A program made the translations under genes and the position numbers. DNA of 62,615 bases. It comes from Bacteroidota bacterium (GTDB taxonomy: Bacteria > Bacteroidota > Bacteroidia > NS11-12g > UBA955). Within the stretch, counting starts at the first letter, position 1. Each line of letters begins with the position of its first letter. Positions 8,926 to 55,885 of the stretch are shown here, piece after piece. A model generated the notes under the pieces. The model worked only from the letters and a program-made list of their open reading frames with translations. It made no database searches and had not been told where the DNA came from. The stretch is taken from contig JAIXYV010000011.1 in assembly GCA_027490055.1 (NCBI GenBank), positions 1 through 62,615 on the forward strand, given 5' to 3'.

Positions 8926-8929
8926 CAAC

Positions 8930-9282
8930 GGACAATCGGCTTGTCGCGTCTGGCAACAGATGAGGAAAGTCCGGGCAACACAGGGTGCCAAACCACTTGA
9001 AAGGGTGGGCGGTGTGAAGCAATGAGCACCGACAGAAAGGGTCGCAGAAAATAACCGCCGATCAGCAATGAACGGTAAGGGTGAAAATGTGAGGTAAGAG
9101 CTCACATCTCTGTGCAGTAATGTATAGAGGGGATAAACCTTTTGGGTTGTAAGGCCAAATATACCGGGGATTGAGGGTTACCCGCCCTACTGAGATTCGT
9201 CTCTGCCCCGGAGGGTAGGCTGCATTAGATAAATGACAAGCATTCGCTCAGGCGAATACAGAACCCGGCTTATAGATTGTCC
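8930..9282 (+). ncRNA. rnpB: RNase P RNA (bacterial class A)
   Basis: Conserved GAGGAAAGUCCGGGC and ACAGAACCCGGCUUAUA; terminal pairing GGACAAUC/GAUUGUCC (P1). Confidence 0.96.
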
Positions 9283-9295
9283 ATTTTTTTAACTT

Positions 9296-11119: not shown

Positions 11120-11186
11120 CATAAAAATAGCCCACATTAAGTGGGCTATCAACTCTAGATTTTGTGTATTTGTATTTGTGTGTGTC
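11120..11186 (-). terminator. 3'UTR element and intrinsic terminator of the 11200-11409 gene
   Basis: Minus strand GACACACACAAATAC...ACACAAAAT...ATAGCCCAC-TTAAT-GTGGGCTATTTTTAT. Confidence 0.8.
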
Positions 11187-11199
11187 GTGTTGGGGTTTC

Positions 11200-11409
11200 C
11201 TAGGTGTTTAAGCCAATTAGAAACAAGGCGCTAAATAATGATACAATAGCAATGGTCTTAGTAATACGGTCTGCCATAACAGCACTGATTAAATAAGGCT
11301 TCTCAATTTCTTCTTGTGTGTTGTACAATTCATACGGTAGTCCGGTAAAGCGACTCGCTTGATGAACTTCTAATCCACTGTAGGTGCTGAAATTGGTTTG
11401 ACGTTGCAT
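11200..11409 (-). CDS. Small single-TM protein (69 aa), unknown
   Basis: C-terminal hydrophobic segment ITKTIAIVSLFSALFLIGL; flanked by its own promoter-like motif and terminator. Confidence 0.65.
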   Translation of the reverse strand: MQRQTNFSTYSGLEVHQASRFTGLPYELYNTQEEIEKPYLISAVMADRITKTIAIVSLFSALFLIGLNT

Positions 11410-11496
11410 AATTATTATAAGGTTTTTAGCAGGCTTTTTGATAGGTTTAAATACTCAAAATGTATTAATACTTAAATTTTTCAAATGGCCTATACC

Positions 11497-11504
11497 CAAA
11501 TATA
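11497..11504 (-). promoter_or_regulatory. Candidate -7 box (TATATTTG) within shared motif TATATTTGGGTATAGG
   Basis: Exact TAnnTTTG; extended motif 11489-11504 identical to 11938-11953 on the other strand. Confidence 0.65.
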
Positions 11505-11937
11505 GACAACAAGTAATTCATGAATAAGTTTTTCTTAAAATTTCTATAAATATATTGTAAGTACTTGAAATTAAGTAGTATAATTTTTAATTGAGATCTG
11601 GTTTGTTATTGTTTTTTCAGGTTTTAGTTCTGAGCCTGAACTTAAAATGCGCCATTTTCTTCTTAAAGCTTTTTTTAAAAACCTTTTAAATTTAACGATT
11701 GATTTATTATTAAAATATATTAATGTTTTACCTGTTTGGGCTGATGTTAAAATATATGTATGATTTCTAAGTTTGATTTCGACTTAGTACCCTGGTTTTT
11801 AAAAATGAAACTGTATTTTTATCCTTGAATGGGCAAACTTTACGCTTGGAATAAAAAATTTTCAATTTGAATATCAGGTGTTTATGATCTAAATCAAAGT
11901 TTTTTTTCGATCTTGTTAAAATCATCAGATGGTTTTT

Positions 11938-11945
11938 TATATTTG
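11938..11945 (+). promoter_or_regulatory. Candidate -7 box (TATATTTG) within shared motif TATATTTGGGTATAGG
   Basis: Exact TAnnTTTG; extended motif 11938-11953. Confidence 0.65.
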
Positions 11946-12027
11946 GGTATAGGGTATTAAAACAATGTGAGTTTTATTACTTATTAAGTAGAAAATCCTA
12001 ACAAAAAACAAAAAATAAAATACTAAT

Positions 12028-12228
12028 ATGAACAACTCTGCAACACTAAAAAACAACAGTAAAAAAGGTTTTTACTTCACCGAAATCTTAATGCTTAAAT
12101 CTATTATAGCATTATTAATCCTGACTTTCTTTTTATTAAACGAGATGCAGGCATCTAACCACGAATCAAATACCATGAATGATCATAAAGGCTACAAGGT
12201 TTGCGAATCAAATCCTGAAAGCCACTAA
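12028..12228 (+). CDS. Small single-TM/secreted protein (66 aa), unknown
   Basis: Hydrophobic segment SIIALLILTFFLLNEMQAS; own promoter-like motif and terminator. Confidence 0.65.
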   Translation: MNNSATLKNNSKKGFYFTEILMLKSIIALLILTFFLLNEMQASNHESNTMNDHKGYKVCESNPESH

Positions 12229-12245
12229 ATCTTTCATTATAAAAA

Positions 12246-12311
12246 GACACACACACAAATACACAAAATACCTCTAAAGACTATAGCCCACTTCGGTGGG
12301 CTATTTTTATT
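12246..12311 (+). terminator. 3'UTR element and intrinsic terminator of the 12028-12228 gene
   Basis: GACACACACACAAATACACAAAAT...ATAGCCCAC-TTCG-GTGGGCTATTTTTAT (UUCG loop). Confidence 0.85.
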
Positions 12312-55615: not shown

Positions 55616-55623
55616 TATATTTG
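55616..55623 (+). promoter_or_regulatory. -7 box TATATTTG of the B12 uptake operon
   Basis: Exact TAnnTTTG just upstream of riboswitch. Confidence 0.65.
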
Positions 55624-55627
55624 CAGT

Positions 55628-55885
55628 CGATAACGGTTCTGAAATTGAACGCTATTTTCAAATTCAGATTAAAAGGGAATCCGGTGTAATTCCGGAACAT
55701 TTCCCGATGCTGTAATCCTCTCGTATCTTGTTTTCAAGATACAGTTTTTCCGGGTTCTAATACCACTGTTCGCCCAATCAGCGAATGGGAAGGTCCGAAA
55801 AAATACAGGGGTGAGTCAGAAGACCTGCCATTGTCAACATAGGTTTTAAAGCTTTCGGAGAAAAGGCTTGGACTCAACAAAGGCA
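55628..55885 (+). promoter_or_regulatory. Cobalamin riboswitch (AdoCbl/B12 element)
   Basis: AAAGGGAATCCGGTGTAATTCCGGAACATTTCCCGATGCTGTAATCC and GTGAGTCAGAAGACCTGCCA, immediately 5' of a BtuB-like receptor; boundaries approximate. Confidence 0.92.

Follow-up and report, generated by a model that had tools for sequence, protein, structure and literature searches.

Two small membrane-protein mRNAs and a possible RNA-to-RNA control circuit for T9SS cargo in a genus of Bacteroidota

Several described RNAs resemble parts of the system that we consider here. In B. thetaiotaomicron, the FopS family comprises 14 short RNAs, one of them derived from a 3' UTR, in which a single-stranded seed is combined with a terminator and which pair with the start regions of SusC mRNAs; RbpB is described along with them (PMC11697453). 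In the icaR mRNA of Staphylococcus aureus, the 5' and 3' UTRs interact with each other (PMC3868564). Vcd from Vibrio cholerae is a dual-function RNA that has both a small protein and a base-pairing segment (PMC8672173), and among the E. coli 5' UTR and ORF-internal RNAs there are sponges, in which part of an mRNA titrates a small RNA (PMC7815308).

We analyzed a stretch of 62,615 nucleotides from a Bacteroidota bacterium (the window), and in particular two tiny genes, A and B, whose 3' UTRs contain a CA-rich element. The exact reverse complement of this element, which we call the GU module, occurs mostly at the ends of mRNAs for cargo of the type IX secretion system (T9SS). The GU modules share with FopS and GibS (PMC11697453) a multicopy design of seed plus terminator and a predicted pairing near the start codons of surface-protein mRNAs. 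Both the seed and the terminator are found in the aligned modules, and the complementarity to start regions is a computed one. Unlike in FopS, most of the copies here are located at the ends of T9SS cargo mRNAs, the seed is rich in G and U, the putative targets are T9SS cargo rather than SusC, and there are matching sites in the tails of A and B. As in icaR (PMC3868564), an element in the 3' UTR is complementary to the start region of its own mRNA (here in the cargo mRNAs G000:C29a, C29b, and C113b; G, C, and L numbers are our labels for genomes, contigs, and loci). However, the element here is multicopy, is possibly trans-acting, and is also matched by the A/B tails. A and B resemble Vcd (PMC8672173) in joining a small protein to a putative base-pairing segment, but here a DNA operator appears to be shared with cargo genes. 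The A/B tails resemble the E. coli sponges (PMC7815308), with an activity that is predicted. In contrast to both Vcd and the sponges, the conservation here is in Bacteroidota.

Genes A and B and their genomic setting

The source assembly has 3.0 Mb in 121 contigs, and its TAnnTTTG promoters and T9SS cargo fit an organism of the Bacteroidota. The two tiny open reading frames point outward, with the sizes and positions given in a preliminary description of this DNA. Gene A (12028..12228, + strand) encodes a 66-aa single-TM protein with the motif FYFTEILMLKSIIALLILTFFLLNEMQAS, and gene B (11200..11409, - strand) encodes a 69-aa protein that has a C-terminal TM segment and the motif KPxLISxxxADxIxKTIAVxSLFSALFxIGLNA. 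The preliminary description also pointed out likenesses between the flanks of the two genes, and these hold up. An identical 16-mer, TATATTTGGGTATAGG, is present at 11489-11504 (-) and 11938-11953 (+), 79 and 74 nt before the respective ATGs, with 433 bp between the two copies. The 3.0-Mb assembly contains no third copy, and a reversed version of the pattern, used as a control, does not occur in it. In searches against the organism's own genome, the 5' stretches of A and B are 75% identical over 76 nt (E = 1.6e-7), and the related stretches after the two stop codons are 80% identical over about 64 nt (E = 2.5e-8). Both genes end in an intrinsic terminator with a common 9-bp stem (ATAGCCCAC/GTGGGCTAT) and then TTTTTAT; the terminator of A (ATAGCCCAC-TTCG-GTGGGCTAT-TTTTTA) is at 12283..12310 (+), and that of B is at 11121..11149 (-). 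Since the paired pattern recurs in relatives, the similarity between A and B is well above chance.

Seven genomes of the genus have family A and five have family B, among MAGs that have gaps. Outside the genus, both families give weak single matches only, and a comparison of A and B to Pfam and NCBIfam found zero families above the curated cut-off. Third codon positions carry most of the nucleotide changes in both genes. For A, pN/pS is 0.17-0.48 overall and 0.22-0.36 relative to the window copy (the G014 copy was left out of these figures). For B, pN/pS is 0.16-0.52 within subclades, which are the close comparisons, and 0.59-0.81 between subclades; in the comparisons of either gene, synonymous sites are near saturation. 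These ratios indicate that both families are under purifying selection. The earlier view that the UTRs and not the proteins are conserved was wrong, because both proteins are conserved across genomes of the genus and third-position changes dominate.

Within the genus, the A/B site is a single syntenic place, with a gene for an M61 peptidase on one side and lpxB on the other. The divergent orientation that had been reported is variable: the synteny comparison shows that gene B is flipped in G010 and G011, which gives a tandem pair with A at the same place. At this location, G008 and G014 have no gene B. In G013, an ArsR-like gene and an SRPBCC-like gene (both named from their sequences) are inserted between A and B (L044:3435-4279). 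Elsewhere in the window, Rfam identifies RNase P RNA class A and a cobalamin riboswitch (8928-9288 and 55617-55846); besides these, the Rfam search of the window gave only chance-level matches near A/B. We propose that A and B would be co-regulated, genus-specific small membrane-protein genes that were inserted between the M61 peptidase gene and lpxB.

The promoter and the tandem dyad

A -7 promoter box, TATATTTG, is found at 11938..11945 (+) for gene A and at 11497..11504 (-) for gene B. It is a Bacteroidota-type -7 box (TAnnTTTG). In an alignment of 17 copies, the box is almost invariant and is followed by a spacer and then by TRAGTATWWATACTYAnTRRGTATWWATACTYA, or two imperfect dyads with a 17-nt period. 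The tandem dyad of gene A (TGAGTTTTATTACTTATTAAGTAGAAAATCCTA) lies at 11968..12000 (+) and was identified with models R1 and R3 and with the statistics of spacing and arms; that of gene B (TAAGTATTAATACATTTTGAGTATTTAAACCTA) lies at 11442..11474 (-) and was identified from model matches and arm statistics. In 42 of the 54 sites that we examined, the distance between the first base of the box and the start of the dyads is 29-30 nt. For several T9SS cargo genes, they start about 20-21 nt from the box, which is roughly one helical turn less.

An RNA hairpin would tolerate G opposite U but forbid A opposite C. At the mirrored arm positions, the non-pairing combination of A and C is the commonest one at the two most variable pairs (21/54 and 24/54), and the RNAalifold energy of the 5' element is about zero. 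These two results rule out a structured RNA. Because the arms are mirrored without RNA covariation, we read the tandem dyad as a DNA operator and not an RNA element, which we consider very likely. Given its place in the expected 5' UTR, the operator would most simply act by repression. A literature search with the operator sequence returned nothing relevant.

Model R3 matches 10 of the 13 genus genomes that are sufficiently complete, and none of 67 genomes from elsewhere in the order (E-values from these custom models are rough), and the operator regulon has about 6-15 sites per genome. Among the genomes searched, the regulon is restricted to one genus. The genes behind the operator encode DUF6089 outer-membrane proteins, T9SS cargo, several small hydrophobic proteins, and a lysine-rich H1-like protein. 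DUF6089-type genes with the operator are present in most genomes of the genus (L104, L109, L118, L119, L045, L052, L085, and L089). In G009 and G014 (L072 and L121), the operator precedes a gene for a lysine/alanine-rich histone H1-like protein. The preliminary description had explained the flanks of A and B as a duplicated cassette. Searching the genome and its relatives with both elements separates the two ends: the 3' part is specific to A/B, but the 5' part belongs to a broad regulon. Because the same promoter and operator stand at unrelated genes, the 5' similarity does not come from a duplicated UTR.

The operator is probably bound by a response regulator of the NarL/LuxR type. Its half-sites, TACYYA/TRRGTA, resemble the NarL heptamer, TACYYMT. 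Compared to NarL/FixJ (LuxR-type) operators, this one has two dyads with a 17-bp period and is downstream of the promoter. Eleven of the 13 operator genomes have an orthologue of one NarL-type response regulator (G000:C106), and in G006 no other GerE protein is convincing. Across the operator-bearing genomes that were compared, it is 81-98% identical (L163, L164, L165, L166, L173, L174, and L175). A 57%-identical orthologue is also present in G001 and G002, which are operator-free, so this regulator is a candidate only. In some genomes, a neighbouring gene encodes a 472-aa secreted beta-propeller-like protein.

The CA element and its exact complement

The CA element of A is a 19-nt sequence, ACACACACAAATACACAAA, in the 3' UTR (12249..12267, +). 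It is invariant in an alignment of the seven complete A transcripts, one from each of seven genomes, and is the longest invariant run in that alignment. The CA element in the 3' UTR of B is ATACAAATACACAAAA (11160..11175, -). A 13-mer, CACACAAATACAC, occurs once per A-bearing genome, in the 3' UTR of A, with one extra copy in G014; the reversed control of this 13-mer has zero occurrences. In the subclade in which the 3' UTR and terminator of B differ strongly, B nevertheless retains TACACAAATACACAAAA. The strong conservation makes it likely that the 3' element is functional as RNA, as had been suggested. A genome-wide type of terminator is ruled out, since a model of the 3' element recovers the ten A/B copies that were used to build it and otherwise finds weak matches only.

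The terminator stems of A and B stay paired in relatives by compensatory change. This observation, together with the robustness of the operator regulon, is what would be expected if the operator were the whole story, that is, if A and B were ordinary co-regulated surface-stress or envelope genes and their 3' likeness were a conserved terminator with a spacer. However, conservation is higher in the CA core than in the coding sequence, B retains the core even next to an unrelated terminator, and the exact complement of the core is confined to the 3' ends of T9SS genes and to candidate small RNAs. We consider this explanation improbable.

The complement was found with a 16-mer, ACACAAATACACAAAA, which has 21 exact occurrences in 17 genomes. 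Four of these belong to the 3' UTRs of A or B; the remaining 17 run in the opposite sense and are GU modules. (The A tail of G008, G010, G011, and G014 matches over 15, not 16, nt.) The GU modules are spread over seven genomes and lie just upstream of terminators; as they were gathered by exact match, their invariance is by construction. Thirteen of the 17 follow the stop codons of T9SS cargo genes, at about 25-105 nt downstream; T9SS type A sorting domains (TIGR04183/PF18962) were checked in four of the cargo proteins, and the remaining ones were classed as T9SS from their C-terminal sequence. The other four modules have no cargo gene directly upstream (G009:C208, G014:C231, G008:C29, and G010:C3) and look like stand-alone RNAs. 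In an alignment of 16 modules, the seed is followed by the stem GAGCGGACA..TGTTCGCTC or by another stem and then by a run of T. Some of the cargo genes with a GU module also carry the tandem-dyad operator. An Rfam search of the cargo loci, at the gathering score, found no match.

Across the 17 genomes, A and GU modules occur together in six, A only in one, GU modules only in one, and neither in nine; this co-occurrence also tracks phylogeny and is therefore not independent proof. A and B were found with no GU module in G003 (82% complete), and GU modules were found with no A in G009 (68% complete). A second subclade (G004, G006, G007, G012, and G015) has the operator and has neither A/B nor GU modules.

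One region, G000:C29 8000-19494 (L057), is an array of T9SS cargo paralogs in tandem, about 2.2 kb apart, several of which have the operator and a GU module. Over 106 nt near the 3' end, two copies in the array share 98% identity, which makes a recent exchange likely.

The preliminary description raised the possibility that an RNA-binding protein binds the 3' UTR. In this case, the CA element would be a site for an RRM/RbpB-like or Hfq-like protein with a role in the stability or localisation of the A/B mRNAs, and the complementarity to T9SS genes would be incidental or a second site. The element is a CA/A-rich and G-poor single strand before a terminator, it has the strongest conservation in the A transcript, and its likeness, on the sense strand, to T9SS start regions could reflect a common protein site. 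But a common site would share its orientation, yet the 17 exact copies are opposite, all of them before terminators; and the 13-mer CACACAAATACAC, with essentially one copy in each A-bearing genome, is too rare for a generic site. Binding by a protein is thus possible but, in our judgment, unlikely. Because the CA tail of A/B is exactly complementary to the 3' ends of cargo mRNAs, some of them co-regulated, we favour base pairing between RNAs.

Predicted pairing and a proposed circuit

We computed duplex energies for the GU consensus. It pairs with the 3' UTRs of A and B at -21.6 and -19.3 kcal/mol, respectively, versus a background of -9.0 +/- 2.1 kcal/mol for 50 3' UTRs from the window. The translation-start regions of cargo genes are CA-rich and complementary to the GU modules: for 14 T9SS cargo start regions, which are not independent since these genes are paralogs, the computed mean is -15.5 kcal/mol. 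Background start regions average -8.2 in the window and -7.8 +/- 2.4 across 261 genes of G006, a genome that has no GU modules; only 0.4% of those 261 genes are at or below -15. For most other regulon genes, the energy of the start region stays at the background level; A and B in the window, at about -7, are among these. At least three T9SS mRNAs (G000:C29a, C29b, and C113b) have both halves, with a CA-rich start region as well as a GU module. For example, G000:C29b has the start region ACACAAAATACA-ATG and the GU module ATTTTGTGTATTTGTGT on one mRNA. For A and B in the window, the 3' UTR is not complementary to the gene's own start region. From these sequence comparisons, we lean towards CA/GU pairing being functional in the cell.

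In the mechanism that we propose, A and B would each be transcribed from a TAnnTTTG promoter, and one transcription factor would control both by binding the tandem dyad just 3' of the start site. The A/B mRNAs would end in the CA-rich 3' element and a terminator. The CA element would pair with GU modules (UUUUGUGUAUUUGUGUAA plus a terminator), which end T9SS cargo mRNAs or would stand alone as small RNAs, and several of the cargo genes with such a pairing partner would be in the same operator regulon. Because the GU modules also fit the CA-rich start regions of cargo genes, we propose that they act, in cis or in trans, as multicopy anti-start-site RNAs that would lower cargo translation; G000:C29b might close its own start site. 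The A/B tails would titrate the GU modules as decoys, so that cargo translation would be raised when A/B mRNA is made. This direction is a tentative suggestion, and the opposite one is possible, with GU RNAs silencing or destabilising A/B. For the chain as a whole, with the GU modules as FopS-like anti-start-site RNAs and with decoy or target sites in the A/B mRNAs, we judge the chances to be about even. A more specific form would be a genus-restricted circuit in which each cargo mRNA can have its start site closed by its own GU module or by that of another cargo mRNA, while the two co-induced A/B mRNAs are decoys by virtue of their perfectly complementary tail and couple the membrane pair to surface display; we hold this to be conceivable, with considerable doubt.

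Small single-TM proteins with RNA pairing to the mRNA tail also call to mind type I toxin-antitoxin systems, with A and B as small hydrophobic toxins that are restrained by the GU RNAs. In the type I layout, an antisense RNA lies opposite the toxin gene or overlaps it, but the complementary sequences that we found lie at other loci. These pairing partners are mostly the ends of cargo mRNAs, and many members of the genus lack A/B yet keep the operator regulon. A toxin role is very improbable.

Other candidate RNAs turned up in the relatives. A second conserved short-RNA candidate, of about 60 nt, is present in five genomes (L105:5087 (+), L229:5400 (+), L240:705 (-), L230:1376 (+), and L252:2048 (-)). 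It has a -7 box of the TAAATTTG/TAGTTTTG type right before AGTGTTTTCATAGTTTTAGTTTTTAGA in G000, G011, and G013, and a terminator after the AGTGTTTTCATAGTTTTAGTTTTTAGA stretch in all five genomes. In its 5' half, this candidate is antisense to start regions that are rich in A (AAAACTAAAACT-ATG-AAAACAC), and it lies near T9SS cargo genes or GU modules. In a sister subclade (L067:1501, L068, L069, L070, and L071), the operator controls a gene for a 36-aa TM protein, the mRNA of which has a long G-poor 5' UTR with three to four copies of CTAAAACTAYNGAAAACACA; these repeats are start-site-like and could be decoys of the same sort as the A/B tails. Also in a sister subclade (L079, L081, L114, and L117), an operator-driven mRNA combines a 40-aa protein and a 28-aa TM peptide, MKNSILKYYYTAIILLVISMVQLMCMQA, with an inverted repeat (GGAATAAT.. 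/ ..ATTATTCC). The small mRNAs of the other subclade have A-rich, decoy-like repeats, and no RNA that matches them was found in the available parts of the genomes.

A limited literature search found no RNA-level control of T9SS cargo and no description of the operator regulon. The tandem-dyad operator is a handle for finding the transcription factor of this surface regulon. Overall, the mRNAs for two small membrane proteins suggest an unrecognised RNA-to-RNA control circuit in the genus. If the pairing is real, then a few exact sequences give a testable network, including who titrates whom, and it becomes testable whether small-protein mRNAs of Bacteroidota are dual-function.
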